Positions 21,109 through 29,284 of a DNA stretch of 64,000 nt are shown here, piece by piece. This stretch comes from Agarivorans albus. GTDB lineage: Bacteria; Pseudomonadota; Gammaproteobacteria; Enterobacterales; Celerinatantimonadaceae. Under the pieces are notes generated by a model. The model saw nothing but the letters and a program-made list of their open reading frames with translations. It ran no database searches and was not told the DNA's origin. The stretch is from the NCBI RefSeq assembly GCF_019670105.1, contig NZ_AP023032.1, positions 1,792,972 to 1,856,971 on the forward strand, written 5' to 3'. Numbering within the stretch: position 1 is the stretch's first letter; the number at the start of each line of letters is the position of its first letter. Made by a program: the position numbers and the translations under genes.

Positions 21109-22521
21109 ATGTCGCCACTCTCTAATCAAGCTCAAACTAGTTCAGCTATACCAGCAAGCCAAACCACTTGGATTAAAAATCCTTTAGACGTATTTAGCGG
21201 AGCTATCAGCGGCCCCGATGCCGAGCGTGATTTACGCGGTGGCATTGTGATTCAAGGAAGCCAAATAATTGAATGTATTGCAGCAGGGCAGCAGCCGGTT
21301 ACAGCAGTAGATCAACAGCTCGATGCCAGCGATATGGTGTTACTGCCTGGCTTAATAAATACCCATCACCACTTTTATCAAACCCTTACACGCTGCTTAC
21401 CGGCTGCAATTAATCAGCCGTTATTTCCTTGGTTACAAACACTTTACCCAGTATGGGCTGGCCTTACTGCTAAGCACATCGAAGTTGCCACAGAGATTGC
21501 TTGTTGGGAGCTAATGTTGAGCGGCGCGACAACGGTGGCCGATCATCACTATGTATTTAACCATGCCTTAAGCGAGGCGATAGATATTCAAGCCGAGGTA
21601 GTAGGGCGCTTGGGAGTGCGGGCAACCTTAACCCGCGGCAGTATGAGTTTGTCACAAAAAGACGGCGGCTTGCCGCCAGACTCTGTAGTGCAAACCGAGC
21701 AGCAAATTCTTGATGATAGCCTGCGTTTAATTAAGCGCTATCACAGTGCTGAACAAGGCAGCATGCTTAACTTGGCGCTTGCGCCATGCTCACCTTTTTC
21801 GGTGACCGAATCGCTAATGTGCGACACCGCCACGTTAGCCAAAGAGCAAGGTGTACGACTGCATACTCACCTTGGTGAAACCATTGATGAAAACGACTTT
21901 TGTTTGAGAACGCTAGGCATGCGACCGGTAGACTATTTGGAGCATTGTGGGTGGCTAGGGCCACAAACGTGGTTAGCCCATGGCATTCACTTTGACCAAA
22001 CTGAAATTCAACGTTTAGGTGCTGCACAAGTTGGAATAGCACATTGCCCAACCTCTAACATGGTGCTGGCATCGGGCATTTGCCCCACCTTAGACTTAGC
22101 CAAAGCCGGTTGTAAGCTAGGCATGGCGGTAGACGGTTCAGCCTCTAACGATAGCTCTAATATGATTCAAGAGTTACGCCATTCATTAATGCAGCAGCGC
22201 TTGCGTTATCGCGCCGATCAAATCACTCACCAGCAAGTGCTTAATTGGGCAAGCCAAGGCAGCGCCGCGGCATTGGGGCGCGATGATATTGGCGTTTTGG
22301 CGCCAGGTAAGCAGGCAGACATTGGTTTGTATAAGTTAGATGGCCTTAATTTTTCGGGTGCTCACGACCCATTAGCCGCTTTGATTTTATGTGGAGCAAG
22401 CCAAGTGAGCACACTGATGGTAGCGGGTAAGTGGATTATTGAAGACGCTGATGAAACCCGCGCCCAGCTAGAACAACTAAAATTACAGCATCACCAATTA
22501 GCCATTCAATTGGTGAACTAA
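21109..22521 (+). CDS. 8-oxoguanine deaminase-like amidohydrolase
   Basis: Zinc hydrolase of the amidohydrolase superfamily, 470 residues. Metal site: HxH in NTHHHFYQTLTR (His86 and His88), His in HTHLGET, His in LAHGIHFD, and Asp in AVDGSASNDSSNM. NTHHHFYQTLTR and DGSASNDSSNM are characteristic of the 8-oxoguanine deaminase/atrazine chlorohydrolase-like (TrzN/guanine deaminase) group, acting on 8-oxoguanine or guanine to give urate or xanthine. Followed after eight bases by an allantoinase, so it supplies the purine-to-allantoin route. Guanine deaminase is the main alternative. Confidence 0.85.
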   Translation: MSPLSNQAQTSSAIPASQTTWIKNPLDVFSGAISGPDAERDLRGGIVIQGSQIIECIAAGQQPVTAVDQQLDASDMVLLPGLINTHHHFYQTLTRCLPAAINQPLFPWLQTLYPVWAGLTAKHIEVATEIACWELMLSGATTVADHHYVFNHALSEAIDIQAEVVGRLGVRATLTRGSMSLSQKDGGLPPDSVVQTEQQILDDSLRLIKRYHSAEQGSMLNLALAPCSPFSVTESLMCDTATLAKEQGVRLHTHLGETIDENDFCLRTLGMRPVDYLEHCGWLGPQTWLAHGIHFDQTEIQRLGAAQVGIAHCPTSNMVLASGICPTLDLAKAGCKLGMAVDGSASNDSSNMIQELRHSLMQQRLRYRADQITHQQVLNWASQGSAAALGRDDIGVLAPGKQADIGLYKLDGLNFSGAHDPLAALILCGASQVSTLMVAGKWIIEDADETRAQLEQLKLQHHQLAIQLVN

Positions 22522-22529
22522 GGATAACT

Positions 22530-23432
22530 ATGAGCAACAATAACTACCCTCGAGATTTATTCGGTTACGGCCAAAACCCGCCCAAAGCAAACTGGCCAAA
22601 TAAAGCCAAAGTTGCCCTGCAATTTGTGGTTAATTATGAAGAGGGGGGCGAAAACTGCGTATTACATGGTGATAGTCATTCCGAGAAGTTTTTATCGGAA
22701 ATAGTTGGGGCAGAGGCATATCCCGATCGCCATATGAGTATGGAATCCATATACGAGTATGGTAGCCGAGCAGGTTTTTGGCGCTTGCATCGTTTGTTTG
22801 TGAGCCAAGGGATCCCAGTAACCGTGTTTGCCGTTGCTATGGCCTTGCAGCGCAACCCGGAAGCGGTAAAAGCTATGTTAGATGCCAACTGGGAAATTGC
22901 CAGCCATGGTTTAAGATGGATTCACTATCAAGATTTTAGCGAGCAGCAAGAGCGTGAACACATAGAGCAAGCCATTGCTATTCATCAACAAACTACTGGC
23001 TCGAAACCTAAAGGCTGGTATACCGGCCGCACCAGTCCGCATACCCTAAAGTTAATTGCCGAGCGTGACGATATTCTCTATTGCGCTGATAGTTACGCCG
23101 ACGACTTACCCTATTGGGACAACAACTACAGCAAACCCTTGTTAATGGTGCCCTATACCCTAGACACCAACGACATGCGCTTTGCTACCCCACAGGGCTT
23201 TAACAGCGGCGAGCAATTTTACCAATATTTAAAAGATGCTTTTGATGTGTTGTATTTTGAAGGTGAAACCACACCCAAAATGCTTAGCATTGGCTTGCAC
23301 TGCCGCATAATAGGCCGCCCAGCAAGGTTTGCTGCTTTACAGCGTTTTATTCAATATACCCAGCAATTTGAAGGTGTTTGGTATGCCACCAGAGAGCAAA
23401 TTGCAGAGCATTGGGTGAAGGAAAAGCTTTAA
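22530..23432 (+). CDS. puuE: Allantoinase PuuE (polysaccharide-deacetylase fold)
   Basis: Opens the hydantoin ring of allantoin to allantoate. 300 residues of the PuuE type: NYPRDLFGYGQNPPKANWP, VNYEEGGENCVLHGD, and EAYPDRHMSMESIYEYGSRAGFWRL are the diagnostic N-terminal blocks, with ASHGLRWI, GWYTGRTSPHT and LHCRIIGRPAR later. AAGGATAAC precedes the ATG, eight bases after the deaminase stop, so the two are an operon. Urate oxidase and xanthine dehydrogenase are not in this window. Confidence 0.93.
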   Translation: MSNNNYPRDLFGYGQNPPKANWPNKAKVALQFVVNYEEGGENCVLHGDSHSEKFLSEIVGAEAYPDRHMSMESIYEYGSRAGFWRLHRLFVSQGIPVTVFAVAMALQRNPEAVKAMLDANWEIASHGLRWIHYQDFSEQQEREHIEQAIAIHQQTTGSKPKGWYTGRTSPHTLKLIAERDDILYCADSYADDLPYWDNNYSKPLLMVPYTLDTNDMRFATPQGFNSGEQFYQYLKDAFDVLYFEGETTPKMLSIGLHCRIIGRPARFAALQRFIQYTQQFEGVWYATREQIAEHWVKEKL

Positions 23433-23444
23433 GGTCATGGCGTT

Positions 23445-23478
23445 CATTAGAACTCTGGCATTAACCTGAGCTCTAATG
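23445..23478. terminator. Stem-loop between convergent genes
   Basis: CATTAGAACTC (23445-23455) pairs with GAGCTCTAATG (23468-23478) apart from one position, around a 12-base loop. It lies between the converging puuE and DUF6765 genes. There is no clear U-run on either strand, so termination is only a guess. Confidence 0.4.
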
Positions 23479-23502
23479 AGGAGTGGTTGGAAAGGATATT
23501 TG

Positions 23503-24942
23503 TTAGCAATGTTCAAAAAGTTGGGTTACCTCTTCAGACAGTGCGCTGGTTTGTTGAGACCAAGAACCTGTAAATTTGTAGATATTGTGCGTATCTAAGT
23601 AGCTTTTAACAAAATGAAAATGATAGTCTGCTGCGATTTGGAACAAATATAAATCACTGTTTACATTTACGTATAATTTACCATAACGGTCTAATCGTTT
23701 GGTTCCCTCTATTAGCCCATTAAGCACTGCATTTTCATGCGGTTCGGCTACTACATCTATGTCGGAGGTGGGGCCCTCTTCGAAGATCTCCTTCCAAGCG
23801 TCAGCAGATACTTTACGGCCAGCGACCCATTTTTCTTTTTCTAGTTTATAAGGTGTTTCTATAGCTTTTTGAGCTTTATGTAGTTGTTCTTGCATTACTT
23901 GGTCAAAGACAATTTTGCCATTTCCGTTAGCTTGATTAAATAAACTAGTGAGCTCTAACCAAGCTGCTAAGTATTCTTTACGGTTATCTCGCTGGGTGAC
24001 TTGATGGGGAGAAGCCCAGCAAGGCTTATACTCAAATTTTACAAAACTGAAATCTGGCATGTGGCCCATCCAACCATGTCCTAGATATGAAGAGCCATTA
24101 GGAACCGCTTCAAAATTTTTATTTCCTAATTTGCTTGTTGATGAGAGTACTTTGTTTTTCCATCCAGACTTGCCGTCATTATAGTTAATTGATTGCCTAC
24201 CGTATCCCATCTCTGATGGTTTCCATGAGTCCGGGTCATAGTTCACATCCCAATAAGTATTCATTACATTGCTCACGCCACAAAAATCTTGATGAGCCCA
24301 TGTATCAGCGATCACATGTGCGCGAATACCTAACAGAATTAGTTTAAATCTGTTTAGGCAATCTTCCTTGTTTTTAAGTATCTCTTGTCCGCCAACAGCG
24401 TAATTAAGGATGGCCTCAAGCCTGTCATTGTTAGTGGCGCATTCAATAGCATCGAGAAGTAATTGGCGGGATAGCGCACTTTGAGGTCGATTTAGCAGCT
24501 TGCCATATTTAAGGTCTTCAACCGTGTTTGGATTGTACTTTTTAAGTATACTTTTCCCCTGGTTGGTATCACGAACTTGGAACTCTGGCAATTGGCTCGC
24601 CACTGGGGCCCCATGAATCATCTCTTGGCTTGGAGTATTTGGTGGGCAGTCATAGTTACCTGGGGTGAAATGGTAAGAGCACCATAAACCATCTTCTGGT
24701 GATAAGCCTGATCCTAGCAGCCCTCCTTGATAGGTATATCGAGGGTATTCAAGTTGAGCCACAATATTGTAGTTATCTGATTTTGTGTCGTCGGTCACTA
24801 GTTCCCAGTATGCCGCGTAGGTTTGTTCGCTAAAAAAATCGATGAAATTGGCCGCTTTTGCGATTAAAGTGGCCTCATCTCGATTGAACCCACCCGTTTT
24901 AGCTGAGTAATATGTTCCGTAGTAATGAAAGTCTTGGTCCAT
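23503..24942 (-). CDS. DUF6765-family protein
   Basis: 479 residues, no signal peptide. The N-terminus MDQDFHYYGTYYSAKTGGF and the block IRAHVIADTWAHQDFCG (His209, Asp213, His217) are typical of DUF6765, a family of unknown function whose spaced His/Asp residues look like a metal-dependent hydrolase site (phospholipase C or HD-like). Ten or so Cys residues are scattered. It is the last gene of a four-gene minus-strand set: regulator, PatG-like protease, 49-residue peptide, then this gene, after a hairpin terminator. Read-through or its own promoter would be needed to express it. A role in processing or handling the peptide is speculation. Confidence 0.75.
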   Translation of the reverse strand: MDQDFHYYGTYYSAKTGGFNRDEATLIAKAANFIDFFSEQTYAAYWELVTDDTKSDNYNIVAQLEYPRYTYQGGLLGSGLSPEDGLWCSYHFTPGNYDCPPNTPSQEMIHGAPVASQLPEFQVRDTNQGKSILKKYNPNTVEDLKYGKLLNRPQSALSRQLLLDAIECATNNDRLEAILNYAVGGQEILKNKEDCLNRFKLILLGIRAHVIADTWAHQDFCGVSNVMNTYWDVNYDPDSWKPSEMGYGRQSINYNDGKSGWKNKVLSSTSKLGNKNFEAVPNGSSYLGHGWMGHMPDFSFVKFEYKPCWASPHQVTQRDNRKEYLAAWLELTSLFNQANGNGKIVFDQVMQEQLHKAQKAIETPYKLEKEKWVAGRKVSADAWKEIFEEGPTSDIDVVAEPHENAVLNGLIEGTKRLDRYGKLYVNVNSDLYLFQIAADYHFHFVKSYLDTHNIYKFTGSWSQQTSALSEEVTQLFEHC

Positions 24943-24969
24943 GATCTTGCCTTATTTTTATGAGAATTA

Positions 24970-25005
24970 ATAAAGAAAAAGCGCATAGAGCTTACTCTAT
25001 GCGCT
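24970..25005 (-). terminator. Strong hairpin terminator after the 49-residue peptide gene
   Basis: AGCGCATAGAG (24980-24990) pairs perfectly with CTCTATGCGCT (24995-25005) around a four-base loop. On the minus strand TTTTTCTTT follows. It begins eight bases past the peptide stop, so the peptide can be made in excess of the DUF6765 protein. Confidence 0.88.
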
Positions 25006-25012
25006 AAAGTGC

Positions 25013-25162
25013 TTAGCTCAATACGCCATTAAGAGCGCCTTGGCCTGCTTTTTTCAGTACATCTAATACACCGCCCCAAAATGCTGGGTTTACGCCGGCA
25101 GCTTTTGCTTCAGCGATACGGTTAGAGCGGTCTACACTTTGAGCTTGAATTGGCATTTTCAT
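25013..25162 (-). CDS. Small peptide, 49 residues; possible RiPP/bacteriocin-like precursor
   Basis: Start ATG at 25162 with AAGGA seven bases upstream; stop at 25013-25015. The sequence opens MKMPIQAQSVDRSN, continues RIAEAKAAGVNPAFW, then a GG pair at residues 30-31 and the tail VLDVLKKAGQGALNGVLS. The first part looks like a hydrophilic leader; the last 20 residues form a Gly/Leu/Val-rich amphipathic helix like many membrane-active peptides. There is no Cys and only one tail residue (Ser49) with a side-chain hydroxyl, so lanthionine-type chemistry is unlikely; proteolysis or head-to-tail joining would fit better. It lies 81 bases after the PatG-like protease gene on the same strand, and two small hairpins (25192-25199 region and 25209-25223) sit in its leader. 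Substrate status is inferred from context. Confidence 0.7.
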   Translation of the reverse strand: MKMPIQAQSVDRSNRIAEAKAAGVNPAFWGGVLDVLKKAGQGALNGVLS

Positions 25163-25243
25163 AATAATTTCCTTTTACTAGTTAGTTGGGGGAGTCCCCG
25201 GTACATACCGTCAAACATTGACGATAATTTGGTTCTGCAATCA

Positions 25244-27190
25244 TTAGTAGGCATGCCAGCTGCGCAGCGTTCCAACGGTTACAGGGATTAGGTCACTCAC
25301 GTCTACTGTGTAGCGGTATAGTTTGCGAGCATTGGTGAGGCGTTCATTAGGGTTGAAGAATTCTAAAACTACATCCCAGCAATCAGAGTCTGGACGGCAA
25401 ACAGGACTTGGTTCAGCGCTAATTTTACTTAGAACTAAATGTTGGCTGAATGCATCATCAAAGATCTCTTTCATCTGATAAGCATTTGTTGCAGCGTAAT
25501 TAATCGCTCGCTCTTGAGAGGCTCGACCTAGGTTTCGCAGCTCGTAGTACACGCGATTTAAGAAGTTACATAACAGGGTACTTTGCTCTTCATTACCAGA
25601 GGCGCTGCCAAGTACCTCTTTTGCTAGGGCGTCTGAGCTCCAGTTAAACATGCCGCGTAATACAGGAGAAATTTTCGGAATAACTTGGCCGTTAAATAAT
25701 CGAGTCTCACCAGAAACGACGCCTGCAATTGAAACCCGTTCAATGCCTTGAGTTTCTTGTTCATTAAGAAATTGAACGAGGCGGGCGTATTGAATAACGG
25801 CAAATTGATTGTCAGGTTCAACGGCATAAACAGGAATACCATCAATCTTAAGCAGCCAAATTAGTGCGTTTGATTGCTCTGCGTTATCGCCGTCATTGAG
25901 ATGCTTTGCCATCTCAATGGGATCAAAGGGGTGACCTTTTTTACTTCCCATCACTTGTGTGAAGTAATCTAGCCTAGCTTCTGTTCCAAAGTCATACCCC
26001 AAGGTGCCAACAATAAAGATTTTGTCTTGGGAGGCGGCCACTCTGGGGTCGCTGCTGGAACAAGGACTTATCTCTTGAGTACTGACTTGAGAAGGCGTTT
26101 GGTGTACGTTTATTTGAGGAGCTGAATCTGCCACTGATGGCAGCTGAAGGCCTACAGGTTGGCTTAGCTCTGCCGAGACTGGGCTTTCAGTATTGCTTGA
26201 ACTTGCAGGAATTATGGGTTCATCAATCGCAGTTTGTGCAGGGAGTACTGCTGCATCTGTTTGGTTATTGCTTTGAGTATCAGACATGGGTAGGTACCTT
26301 TGGTTTTGTTGTTGAGGTTTAGTGAGTAACTCCTGCTTAACCCTTTCTAGTACTGCAGGAATGTGAAGTTTTCGGTAGGTGCTTTTGGATTTCTCATCTG
26401 CACCAGAACAAATAACGCTGGCACTATCTATCAGTATCTCTTTGGTTTTTTTTACCGAGTTTGGGCTGAGGTTAGATAAGCCAAGTGCAGATTGAATTAA
26501 GGCTGCGGTTGCGCTAACAACAGGTGTTGAGAAACTGCTTCCCGATATGACGCTGATTGAGCCTTGGTTTTTTGCTACAGGCATATTTACACCCGAAGCA
26601 AGCAACATTTTGGTTTTTAGCTTGGTGCCATGGTTGTTAAACGGTGCTGGGTTGCCTTTTTCGTCACAGGCCCCAACTGCGAGCACATAATCTAGAGAGG
26701 CCGGAAGCGATTCGGTATTTTTGGCGTCGTTACCCACTGCTGCAACGATTAATATCCCCTGTTTTTTGCAGCGCTGAACCGCATTACGCAGTTCCTGTGA
26801 GCCTAAACCATTTAGCGAGGGGGTTGCTCCGCTCACGTTTACAATGTTACAGCCATCGCTCGCTGCTTTATTTATTGCGTTGGCTAAGGTGATTTCTGAG
26901 CAGCCAATAGGGTTACCTGATTTATCCTCACTAAATACTGGGTAGCTTAATATGGTGGCTTTTGGTGTTAGCCCAATGGCTTTACCAGCTATTAAACTCG
27001 CGACTGCTGTACCATGAATGGAGTTATTTGGGGCTGATTGGCATATGGTTGCTTCATCAAATAGTTGGTGGTTTGAATCAATCGAGCCATCTATTATCGC
27101 AATCTTGATACCTTCTCCATTGTTACCTATATTCTGCAGTTGCTCGAGGCTATTAGCACTGGGCTTAGAGGCTGTTATTCCCTGACTCAT
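25244..27190 (-). CDS. PatA/PatG-like subtilisin-family peptide-maturation protease
   Basis: 648 residues, cytoplasmic (no signal peptide). Residues 25-235 are an S8 subtilase domain with intact triad: Asp34 (AIIDGSID), His59 (IHGTAVASLIAG), Ser219 (GSSFSTPVV), and oxyanion Asn154. A Gln/Ser/Pro-rich linker (about 285-385) joins it to a C-terminal domain (about 388-648) starting KIFIVGTLGYDFGTEARLDYF, with GIERVSIAGVVSGETRLFNG and ISPVLRGMFNWS. That domain matches the conserved C-terminal region of the cyanobactin maturases PatA/PatG, which cleave and macrocyclise precursor peptides. No YcaO cyclodehydratase, prenyltransferase or oxidase genes are nearby, so this is not a standard cyanobactin cluster. 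The 49-residue gene just downstream is the obvious candidate substrate. Confidence 0.85.
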   Translation of the reverse strand: MSQGITASKPSANSLEQLQNIGNNGEGIKIAIIDGSIDSNHQLFDEATICQSAPNNSIHGTAVASLIAGKAIGLTPKATILSYPVFSEDKSGNPIGCSEITLANAINKAASDGCNIVNVSGATPSLNGLGSQELRNAVQRCKKQGILIVAAVGNDAKNTESLPASLDYVLAVGACDEKGNPAPFNNHGTKLKTKMLLASGVNMPVAKNQGSISVISGSSFSTPVVSATAALIQSALGLSNLSPNSVKKTKEILIDSASVICSGADEKSKSTYRKLHIPAVLERVKQELLTKPQQQNQRYLPMSDTQSNNQTDAAVLPAQTAIDEPIIPASSSNTESPVSAELSQPVGLQLPSVADSAPQINVHQTPSQVSTQEISPCSSSDPRVAASQDKIFIVGTLGYDFGTEARLDYFTQVMGSKKGHPFDPIEMAKHLNDGDNAEQSNALIWLLKIDGIPVYAVEPDNQFAVIQYARLVQFLNEQETQGIERVSIAGVVSGETRLFNGQVIPKISPVLRGMFNWSSDALAKEVLGSASGNEEQSTLLCNFLNRVYYELRNLGRASQERAINYAATNAYQMKEIFDDAFSQHLVLSKISAEPSPVCRPDSDCWDVVLEFFNPNERLTNARKLYRYTVDVSDLIPVTVGTLRSWHAY

Positions 27191-27295
27191 TTTCTTATCC
27201 TTTCACCAAGGTTGAGTGTTTTTTGTACTCAAGATTTATTGATAGATTAGTGAGTAAATTGAGGGGGCTCAATGTCAGGTTGGCGTCAGTTTAAG

Positions 27296-27324
27296 GTCAC
27301 CTTGGTATCAAGTTACAAGGTGAC
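27296..27324. promoter_or_regulatory. Inverted repeat between regulator and protease genes
   Basis: GTCACCTTG (27296-27304) pairs with CAAGGTGAC (27316-27324) around an 11-base spacer, 106 bases before the protease ATG. No T-run, so it could be an operator for the neighbouring XRE regulator or an mRNA hairpin. Confidence 0.45.
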
Positions 27325-27339
27325 TTCAATGACTTTTGA

Positions 27340-27755
27340 TTAACTTAAGTGATTAAACACTTTCGCTATTTCCGGATCATGTTGATTTTTCTTTAAATGC
27401 TCTAAGAGTCGATTAGAAATAGTCGCAATCTCAATTTGCTCGCTTGTTTTGTCTAAACTAATTAGTGAGAGCCAGTGGATCAGGCTATAGCGGATGCCGT
27501 TTGGCAAGGAGGGGCTTAAGCGAGGAGTTTGGTCTGTATTAGTAAGAGATTCACGGTCTAAGCTGAATAATTCGCAGTAGTTTTTTAGTGTGTTGAAGGA
27601 TATGTGCCCATTCTTTTCAGCTCTCTTAATAGTTGAGGGCGATATATAGCACTGGTTTTTGTAACTAATGTCGGATAATTGCTCCTGGCTAACCCCCTTT
27701 TTAACCTAAGATTTTTTAGCAATTTCGAATCAATTTTAGTTCCTTTATTACTCAT
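27340..27755 (-). pseudogene. XRE-family HTH regulator interrupted by a frameshift
   Basis: ATG at 27755 with AAAGGA six bases upstream opens a frame that reads LLKNLRLKRG and then loses sense. Reading one base back after the run TTAAAAAGGGGG (about 27692-27703) gives SQEQLSDISYKNQCYISP, TIKRAEKNGHISFNTLKNYCELF, a normal XRE helix-turn-helix, and continues to a stop at 27340. The 416-base span is one base short of a whole number of codons. A missing A or G in the run, a sequencing error, or a programmed -1 shift would all explain it; TAG just upstream prevents a separate start. About 138 residues if restored. It is the first gene of the minus-strand set with the PatG-like protease. Confidence 0.7.
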
Positions 27756-28020
27756 TGTGCATCCTTTCGAGTTTAATTGATTTAGTTTCTATGCGGCTTG
27801 GTGCTGTTTTACAACACATGAACCATTATCAATATTAGCTGATAAAAATATTATTATATTTTAAATGTGCGATTTGTGGATATAAGCAGATAGGTTAATG
27901 GTTCAGATGAGACTTTTTGAGGTGAGGATTTACGACATCAGAAAAATCAGGGCGGCGATTAGGGAGAAGAAATTATAAGTAAGCAGCACTAAGTGCTGCT
28001 TCTTGTGATTGTTTGTATCG

Positions 28021-28284
28021 CTAACCGTCTAAAAGTTCGTGGTCTTTAGGCAGTTGGTTAGCTAACCACAGTACCAGTTTGTGGCGCATTTCTGGGCCGG
28101 TGATTTTGTCTTTAGGTAACGGTGTTAGTCGTTTGTCTTCGGCTAACAACATGTATAAGGCTTCTACTTTGTCTTTCTCTGATATGCCAGGTGGAAACTT
28201 GGCAAAACCGCGTTGCAGTGCGTATACCTCACCAATTTGTAAGGCTTTTTTTAGTAACTGAGCTTCATGTTTATATTTTTTCAC
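28021..28284 (-). CDS. DUF5062-family protein
   Basis: 87 residues, basic, soluble. MKKYKHEAQLLKKALQIGE, ISEKDKVEALYMLLAEDKRL and MRHKLVLWLANQL match the pattern of DUF5062, small proteins of unknown function common in Vibrio and relatives. No obvious partner: the PhnE gene downstream is on the same strand but the 190-base gap following the upstream region carries a dispersed repeat (28291-28360) directly before the start. Confidence 0.7.
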   Translation of the reverse strand: MKKYKHEAQLLKKALQIGEVYALQRGFAKFPPGISEKDKVEALYMLLAEDKRLTPLPKDKITGPEMRHKLVLWLANQLPKDHELLDG

Positions 28285-28290
28285 TAATCA

Positions 28291-28360
28291 TCTCGCTGCG
28301 TAGCCGTTTTTCTTCAACATACGGTAAAGCGCTGGCTATTAACAGCGTTTAGCTCACTAA
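28291..28360. repeat. 70-base dispersed repeat, copy A
   Basis: Ungapped hand alignment with 32366-32435 gives about 56 of 70 identities, highest in the last 25 bases (TTTAGCTCACTAA shared exactly). It lies just upstream of the DUF5062 start; the interval to the PhnE gene at 28475 contains nothing else. Confidence 0.6.
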
Positions 28361-28474
28361 TTGATGCTTCGTTTTTAGTTTTAACGTGTTCAGCTTAAAT
28401 AGTAATCAGTGTGCCAAGGGGAAGAGATGCCTAAGGCGCTAGATGGCCTCAAGCATTTCTTTTGTAGAGGAGTA

Positions 28475-29284
28475 TTAGATGAATGCTCGTCTGCAGCGCG
28501 CTGATATCCACTCAGAAAAGATTACTGTAGATAATATCGCTAAGAATATTAATGCTACTTGCGGCCAAGCCAGCGTGGCTAAAGACTCGTTTAAACGCAA
28601 GCCTATACCTCCGGCGCCAACTAAGCCAAGAACGGTAGATTCTCGAATATTAATATCCCAGCGGAAAATCGTGGTACCAATAAATGTAGGCATAATTTGC
28701 GGCACCACTGCGTAATCTAATACTTGTAGTCTAGAAGCGCCTGTGGCGTTAATTGCTGCTACTTGGTTTGGGTTTATTTCTTCTATCGCTTCGTACATTA
28801 GCTTGGCCACAAAACCAATAGAACGTAGGGCAATAGCGATAATACCTGCGAGTAATCCTGGCCCCAGAACCGCCACTAAAAGCAAGGCCCAAATCAACGA
28901 ATTAATAGAGCGGCTTGCAGCAATAATGAAGAGGGCAATTGGGCGAACCAACCATTGACTAGGCGTTGTATTGCTCGCTGCCAAAAAGGCTACTGGGACC
29001 GCCATTACTACGCCCAAAGCTGTGCCGAGGGTAGCAATATTGAGGGTGTCCCATAAAGGCTGCCATAATTGAGACATATAGCTCCAGCGAGGCGGCCACA
29101 TTCTGCCGCTAATATCCGCTAGTTGGGTTGGGGCATCACTAACAAAATACCACAGGGTGTCGCGGTTCATTTGTTGCCAGCAAAATACACAAAGTGTGAT
29201 AAATAAAAACCATATGAACCATGATGTTAAGCGTTGGCGGCGCGAGTGTTTTTCCCAATATGCGGGATAGCTTGCTTGTGTCAT
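28475..29284 (-). CDS. phnE: Phosphonate/phosphite ABC transporter, second permease
   Basis: 269 residues, about six membrane segments. The EAA-type loop (ALRSIGFVAKLMYEAIEEINPNQVAAINATGASRLQ) and the end motif NIRESTVLGLVGAGGIG are characteristic of PhnE. It starts ten bases after the first permease stop. Two PhnE paralogues in tandem are common for phosphonate, phosphite or 2-aminoethylphosphonate importers; they probably form a heterodimeric channel. No C-P lyase genes are nearby. Confidence 0.9.
   Translation of the reverse strand: MTQASYPAYWEKHSRRQRLTSWFIWFLFITLCVFCWQQMNRDTLWYFVSDAPTQLADISGRMWPPRWSYMSQLWQPLWDTLNIATLGTALGVVMAVPVAFLAASNTTPSQWLVRPIALFIIAASRSINSLIWALLLVAVLGPGLLAGIIAIALRSIGFVAKLMYEAIEEINPNQVAAINATGASRLQVLDYAVVPQIMPTFIGTTIFRWDINIRESTVLGLVGAGGIGLRLNESLATLAWPQVALIFLAILSTVIFSEWISARCRRAFI

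Follow-up and report, generated by a model that had tools for sequence, protein, structure and literature searches.

What does a protease of the cyanobactin type do in a gammaproteobacterium, next to a 49-residue peptide gene? The question is raised by a 64,000-nucleotide stretch of Agarivorans albus DNA (assembly GCF_019670105.1, contig NZ_AP023032.1, positions 1,792,972 to 1,856,971; hereafter the window), in which a helix-turn-helix (HTH) gene, the protease gene, the peptide gene, a terminator-like hairpin and a gene for a DUF6765 protein follow one another 5' to 3' on the minus strand, confirming the four same-strand genes and their order as given in the first-pass annotation of this DNA. 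We propose, with a probability of about 0.7, that they form a horizontally acquired minimal cyanobactin-related cassette, in which the protease would cut a tagged precursor to give a linear 22-residue peptide.

The protease (648 aa, minus strand, 25244..27190) comprises by Pfam an S8 domain (about 26420-27118) and, beyond a disordered linker, the PatG_D and PatG_C domains (about 25256-26023), together termed the domain of unknown function (DUF) of cyanobactin proteases. With the PatA/PatG model TIGR03895 its score was 483.4 bits (cut-off 421.05). Alignment of 32 proteins revealed that the triad D34, H59 and S219 and the DUF cysteines C598 and C604 are invariant, and that N154 is present in 31, with one gap. 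The predicted structure (mean predicted local distance difference test score, pLDDT, 80.6) consists of two confident domains and a low-confidence linker at about residues 296-386 (296-324 and 326-386). The C-terminal part aligns to the PatG DUF structure 4uvq (E 5e-50), so the annotated subtilase with an intact triad and a PatA/PatG-type C-terminal domain is borne out. Its further label, PatG-type, is not: the S8 domain is far closer to the N-terminal cyanobactin proteases 4h6w (E 2e-35) and 3zxx (E 1e-33) than to the PatG macrocyclase 4aks (E 3e-15), Pfam shows no oxidase domain, such as a passage of PMC4603692 reports for some PatG proteins, and residues 10-645 align at 34% identity with the PatA-type protease of Gloeothece verrucosa, which sits in a cyanobactin cluster with annotated PatB and PatC genes. 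The window protease is the single PatG_C match in the host genome, and no second, PatG-type protease was found there. These alignments indicate that the protease is of the leader-cutting PatA type and not a PatG macrocyclase. PatG_C was detected in 6 of 369 genomes of the class and TIGR03895 over its cut-off in 2 of 398 genomes of the phylum (the window's own included in both counts); at E 0.001 TIGR03895 matched 146 of the 398, nearly all at subtilase level, and among the matches listed for the 59 nearest other genomes coverage extended over subtilase parts only.

The likely substrate emerged from comparison of related loci. An alignment of four such proteases was scanned against the genomes of 84,980 species, with patterns that included CR[PQ]DS[DE]C[WY], and the best 80 of 88 loci were kept, 78 of them distinct. 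The first 58 (L038-L095) served as the PatA-type set and the other 20, ranked lower, as contrast; the 58 include near-duplicates (among them L091/L092, L063/L077 and L052/L095), L042 has the same sequence as L029 of the Thiotrichaceae record G091, a class-mate of the host, and the full 6.5 kb on both sides was available in just 38. In 39 of the 58 loci the 1.5 kb that follow the protease on its own strand contain small open reading frames (ORFs) with the strict motif P.Q..P[VI].R (67 ORFs in 87 kb). The rest of that strand has 12 such ORFs in 625 kb, the opposite strand has 3 in 825 kb, and shuffled downstream stretches give a mean of 0.05 (20 shuffles); tagged ORFs are thus about 40-fold denser just downstream of the protease than elsewhere on that strand. 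A looser motif occurred downstream in 50 of the 58 loci (100 ORFs; 5.0 in shuffles) and was missing in eight. With a wider regular expression and three plasmid loci added, four of 61 loci gave no match (L051, L060, L069 and L088), and L088 has a tagged peptide by eye. Tagged ORFs occurred in three of the 20 contrast loci, namely L096 and L102, which have PatG domains by Pfam, and L100, which has the CRPDSDC signature; the ORF of L096 looks PatB-like. None was found in the other 17 contrast subtilase loci, of which four offered a searchable stretch shorter than 1.5 kb and 14 were Pfam-checked as lacking PatG domains (L103, L106 and L107 lay outside that scan).

When ORFs of at least 90 residues were clustered, the protease was the single near-universal family (57 of 59 loci; the next reached 14). 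The peptides downstream of it consist of a leader and a varied core, often encoded by two or more genes in tandem; over family cut-offs only a canonical cyanobactin precursor was recognised among them (one of eight in NCBIfam, one of nine in Pfam), and three relatives match TIGR03678 or TIGR04446 below the cut-off, with matches that begin at the leader. Because the same pairing of protease and peptide recurs in dozens of loci, the pairing in the window is more than chance, and comparison gives good support to the peptide as the substrate of the protease, an unusual precursor in a proteolytic system as the first-pass annotation had suggested.

The peptide gene (minus strand, 25013..25162, with aaaagga directly 5' of the ATG) encodes MKMPIQAQSVDRSNRIAEAKAAGVNPA/FWGGVLDVLKKAGQGALNGVLS. 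The product contains no Cys, no Thr and three Ser, in line with the earlier remark on its lack of Cys and most Ser/Thr; it matched none of the families in Pfam and NCBIfam up to E 1, stayed below the cut-offs of the cyanobactin precursor families TIGR03678, TIGR04446 and PF19155, and had no second copy in the host genome by protein search. Its leader carries the tag PIQAQSVDR (codons 25127..25153), a match to the widened motif P.Q..[PS][VI].R, which occurs in just one small ORF of the window, the peptide gene itself. PatA-like enzymes cleave after G(L/V)E(A/P)S (RSII; PMC10885120, in the part consulted), and the sequence GVNPA (codons 25082..25096), different at two positions, lies at the expected place, which predicts a cut after A27. 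The four peptides of the relatives L078 and L084 have GANPA, SVQPA, SVNPA and GVGPA at the same place. In a set of 109 candidate peptides, which includes some chance ORFs and PatB-like proteins and excludes two canonical precursors that failed the regular expression, G[VILA].PS stands at the leader-core border in 21 (0.5 in shuffles) and a broader cut-site pattern in 57 (13 in shuffles). The predicted core FWGGVLDVLKKAGQGALNGVLS (22 aa, codons 25016..25081; computed 2228.23 Da, linear) is Cys-free with a charge of +1, and its helical hydrophobic moment is matched by 0.9% of its own shuffles. It reaches the precursor's end, NGVLS, and no AYDG-like C-terminal signature is present. Directly 3' of the gene lies a terminator-like hairpin (minus strand, 24980..25005; 11 pairs, T-rich tail), which would fit a transcript made chiefly for the peptide; six such sites occur in the region against 4.9 expected from shuffles, and the fold z is -2.3. 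An Rfam scan of 22500-29000 returned no match over threshold.

The window peptide shows homology over its whole length to Cys-free peptides encoded behind PatA-type proteases (z 9-18, 0 of 2000 shuffles as good), so that homologues do occur near such proteases. They come from L078 and L084 (alphaproteobacterial metagenome-assembled genomes, MAGs, with two peptides each), L088 (Bradyrhizobium algeriense) and L066 (a Nostoc MAG). The four peptides of L078 and L084 contain PAFLG where the window has PAFWG and share with it a hydrophobic, Gly/Ala-rich tail. A tree of 60 proteases made without the peptides, from which the truncated or broken L071, L075 and L094 were left out, placed the window together with L078, L084 and L088 (support 100/99). 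Trees of 32 proteins recovered the same four-member group from the DUF alone (0.992) and from the S8 domain alone (0.986), the latter with an inner group of window, L078 and L084 (0.844), and S8, PatG_D and PatG_C are present in all four proteases by Pfam. Homology, linkage and co-variation of protease and peptide type are thus all visible in the compared sequences, and protease type and core type appear mostly to travel together across distant bacteria.

The extent of the cassette was delimited by comparison with six genomes of the same genus, in all of which the flanking genes were matched (one flank match, in G006, at just 64%). Homology stops at 23414-23428 and restarts at 27975 or later, leaving 23429..27974 (no strand assigned) without counterpart in the congeners. 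The two flanks are separated by 135-397 bp in G002, G003 and G004 and by about 1.3 kb of unrelated DNA in G001; they lie on different contigs in G005 and far apart in G006. No PatA-like protease was found in the six genomes, the best matches being weak and confined to the subtilase part. Since congener homology breaks on both sides of the four genes, they make up one unit of about 4.5 kb. Either the host gained it or the others lost it, and gain would be the simpler reading. Scans of viral_contigs for a phage origin yielded only seven weak subtilase matches for the protease alignment and none for DUF6765, and tblastn of the peptide against plasmid and phage records gave no match.

From these data we propose that transcription probably runs from the protease gene into the peptide gene and mostly ends at the hairpin, with some read-through into the DUF6765 gene, and that the HTH regulator, now broken, would once have stood upstream of the protease in working form. 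The PatA-type protease would recognise the 49-residue precursor via its N-terminal tag PIQAQSVDR and cut after AGVNPA, freeing the linear, otherwise unmodified 22-residue FWGGVLDVLKKAGQGALNGVLS, which would probably be a membrane-active amphipathic helix. Ring closure is not expected, given the lack of a PatG macrocyclase and of a C-terminal signature. We infer that the peptide would act on membranes, outside or inside the producer.

Several points weigh against this proposal. The predicted site ends in Ala and not in the Ser of the PatA consensus, and nearly half of the 109 candidate peptides have no cut-site-like motif. Core amphipathicity, clear in the window, L088 and L066, is borderline in L078a, L084a and L084b and absent in L078b. 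No exporter is encoded among the four genes, which is awkward for a secreted membrane-active product, and the broken regulator possibly hints at decay of the cassette. The Nostoc protease of L066 lies elsewhere in the tree despite its window-like peptide. The grouping of the window with L078, L084 and L088 is strong and is treated as not final because the branch of the window protease is long (1.89) and other proteases are equally close by raw identity: the best overall value is 39% with L040, the alphaproteobacterial trio does not stand out, and for the DUF identity to the window is 46% with L078 versus 49% with L038.

The first-pass annotation also allowed for a cyclising system, in which the protease would be a transamidating macrocyclase and the product a head-to-tail ring. 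The C-terminal domain, common to PatA and PatG according to a passage of PMC4259220, would permit this; we nevertheless find it barely credible, as the S8 domain and the alignment over residues 10-645 point to PatA, PatG_C has one match in the genome and the precursor ends at the core without an AYDG-like follower. It is very unlikely that the peptide serves the protease as a separately encoded inhibitor, propeptide or regulator and is not its substrate. The protease has no I9-type prodomain in the Pfam scan, and a peptide bearing the tag would bind the protease on this reading too; yet in many loci several tagged peptides with unrelated cores lie behind one protease, canonical cyanobactin precursors carry the same tag, and cut-like motifs between leader and core are commoner than in shuffles.

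In another reading the released helix would act inside the producer and not on competitors, in regulator-controlled self-killing or growth arrest as in abortive defence. An HTH regulator lies upstream here, and also in L078, where it is over the Pfam cut-off; the cassette without an exporter would fit, as would a patatin-like phospholipase near three PatA loci (L056 9738-10910, L078 10693-11709 and L094 2390-3136). We consider this unlikely, since PADLOC matched the protease only to generic subtilase and, weakly, IetS S8 models and the other two proteins to nothing, and the cores of most relatives are Cys-rich and of no obvious lytic kind. The three bacteria with a patatin-like phospholipase are unrelated, and its gene lies no more than a few kb from the protease gene. 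It is doubtful, with somewhat more in its favour, that DUF6765 is a necessary third part, one that would modify, export or neutralise the peptide and might be a metal-dependent hydrolase: it shares the inserted cassette and lies behind the peptide's hairpin, has an invariant His/Asp set in five members and shares one Nostoc MAG with a similar peptide, whereas it was found in none of 67 other loci nor in the genomes of L078, L084 and L088, and resembles neither solved structures nor, by profile, S1/P1 nucleases.

The DUF6765 protein (479 aa, minus strand, 23503..24942) matches PF20551 at 150.1 bits (E 1.5e-43; gathering cut-off 26.6). Its invariant residues are D4, H6, D35, H91, H209xxxD213xxxH217, H289 and D297. 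The family is rare (5 of 274 genomes of the class, the window's included). Of the 67 other PatA-type or related loci, two of which are one and the same contig, none has DUF6765 beside the protease within the stretch available, so the co-occurrence of protease, peptide and DUF6765 across genomes predicted by the annotation held for the first two and failed for DUF6765 as a general partner. The Nostoc MAG with the L066 peptide encodes a DUF6765 protein 53% identical to that of the window, on another contig than the peptide; it alone among 11 genomes of its genus searched combines DUF6765 with a similar Cys-free peptide, a weak coincidence of about 1 in 11, and in a MAG. No convincing tagged peptide was found in the stretches around DUF6765 in L169, L170, L172 and L176. 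The order of the invariant His and Asp suggested a PLC/P1-nuclease-like protein, a reading that was rejected: hhalign against ten S1/P1 nucleases gave a probability of 0.2%, and no solved structure was matched. The single-sequence AlphaFold2 prediction was of no use (pLDDT 31.6).

Cyanobactin PatA (TIGR03895; 4h6w, 3zxx) has the same architecture as the window protease and aligns nearly end to end, and PatE-type precursors (TIGR03678, TIGR04446, PF19155) share the N-terminal leader segment with the window peptide, whose predicted cut site is RSII-like; the system would work like the PatA step, with related parts. Unlike cyanobactin clusters, the cassette has no PatG, its host is a gammaproteobacterium, tblastn with one cyanobactin YcaO query found no match in the 64-kb window, and no oxidase or prenyltransferase gene is among the four, as first noted. 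Unlike cyanobactin precursors, the peptide has no LAEL[SAD]E and no follower, and its core is long and Cys-free. By comparison, then, the cassette fails the features that define cyanobactins, namely YcaO, PatG, the precursor family score and the C-terminal signature. Linear cyanobactins carry heterocycles and modified ends, for which no enzymes are found in the window cassette. The window core also resembles, without any claim of homology, the frog-skin temporin and brevinin types, short helical membrane-active peptides, in its F-L/W-G start and its hydrophobic, weakly charged helix.

Among described systems, the aeruginosamides and viridisamide are linear cyanobactins (PMC4663559, as excerpted), with a linear product after leader removal, as proposed here. 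Since some known cyanobactins lack a D protein, according to a passage of PMC4603692, YcaO-free clusters as such are not new. The NHLP and Nif11 families resemble the tagged peptides in having conserved leaders and hypervariable cores; passages of PMC4603692 and PMC10783134 describe their precursors as long and their clusters as having YcaO and no PatA/PatG-like proteases. In a search of open-licence PMC, no title or abstract start described a cassette outside cyanobacteria that pairs PatA with a precursor and lacks YcaO. Closest came PMC8776678, a passage of which reports a standalone 'cyanobactin peptidase' in Roseomonas oryzae with a product predicted to be cyanobactin-like; this is likewise a cyanobactin peptidase outside cyanobacteria, and the passage names no precursor or mechanism.

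The cyanobactin leader may have two parts. The canonical precursors of L041, L045, L048 and L065 open with a tag-related segment (e.g. MPQQAQPVNR) followed by LAEL[SAD]E. The latter is present in four of four loci with YcaO and in none of the 54 others, and the first segment is present in both classes; 'without YcaO' here means none in the locus stretch as sought by one query, and takes in L093, where the match is confined to the N-terminal part, and L059, where 27 residues match beside SagB. Precursors with unrelated cores carry the tag, as do PatB-like proteins, whether YcaO is present or not. We tentatively suggest, at rather less than even odds, that P-x-Q-x-x-P-V-x-R is a general address tag read by PatG_D/PatG_C and that the cyanobactin leader consists of two separable modules, with LAEL[SAD]E serving YcaO. 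The near-universal protease and the DUF on other proteins suggest, without showing, the DUF as tag reader. Against this, passages of PMC4259220 report that NMR showed no binding of PatE' by isolated PatG-DUF and that the protease domains keep their activity when isolated, and co-occurrence alone cannot separate the DUF from the PatA-type S8 domain as the reader.

The fold of the DUF is solved, its role is not known, and the paper on its structure closes on the question of what it does (PMC4259220). Cassettes that keep the protease with its DUF and the first leader segment, and have neither YcaO nor LAEL[SAD]E, dissect the leader by evolution, and one enzyme with one 49-residue substrate offers a small system for a direct test of the DUF. 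If the tag reading is true, protease-only cassettes, met in Cyanobacteriota, Pseudomonadota, Planctomycetota, Acidobacteriota, Actinomycetota and Bacillota, would represent a widespread class of tag-and-cut peptides without a name. The cassettes also point to peptide genes left unannotated, and the Cys-free core type, common to distant bacteria, is a candidate antimicrobial or self-acting peptide.

The regulator gene (minus strand, 27340..27755) is open in two frames, the first approximately 19 residues and the remainder lying in different ones; the 3' piece alone matched HTH_19 and HTH_3 below the Pfam cut-offs (E 0.001 and 0.003). The frameshifted XRE regulator of the first-pass annotation is thus likely and falls short of proof. 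Between regulator and protease an inverted repeat (minus strand, 27291..27329) may be an operator.

Further observations were made in the related loci. PatB-like proteins downstream of PatA in L041, L045, L048, L065 and L066 start with a P.[QL]..P[VI].R segment, and L035 (10556-10771) encodes one with the same precursor-like start, a hint that these enzymes also have PatB as a client. A Gloeothece gene annotated as a PatA/PatG protease (L035 8059-10458) encodes two methyltransferase domains in fusion with PatG_D/PatG_C, with no S8 by Pfam. At L030 8077-10638 a subtilase gene is accompanied by a separate PatG_D/PatG_C gene (Pfam-checked), and the host's class-mates L030, L031, L032 and L033 all have these two genes split and then small peptides, several of them Cys-rich, with a leader like MN[IM]P.FTA[EQ].SL; this leader may be a cousin of the tag, and the peptides perhaps form a large family without a name. 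In L033 (213-449) the PatG_C end is followed by MNMPGFTAETSLY... In an Okeania MAG (L046 9012-9890) four tagged precursor genes stand in tandem; three of them are near-identical, and one is partly masked. CAP-domain proteins lie near the YcaO-less cyanobacterial PatA loci L043 (Pfam-checked), L055, L058, L086 and L087 and the plasmids L036 and L037 (by similarity or annotation). In the alphaproteobacterial PatA loci L068, L070, L074, L081, L089, L090, L092 and L100 there is also a gene for a second small protein, which begins with a tag-like segment, has the features FM.....GR.W and QL.TF in common between loci and may be an accessory factor.

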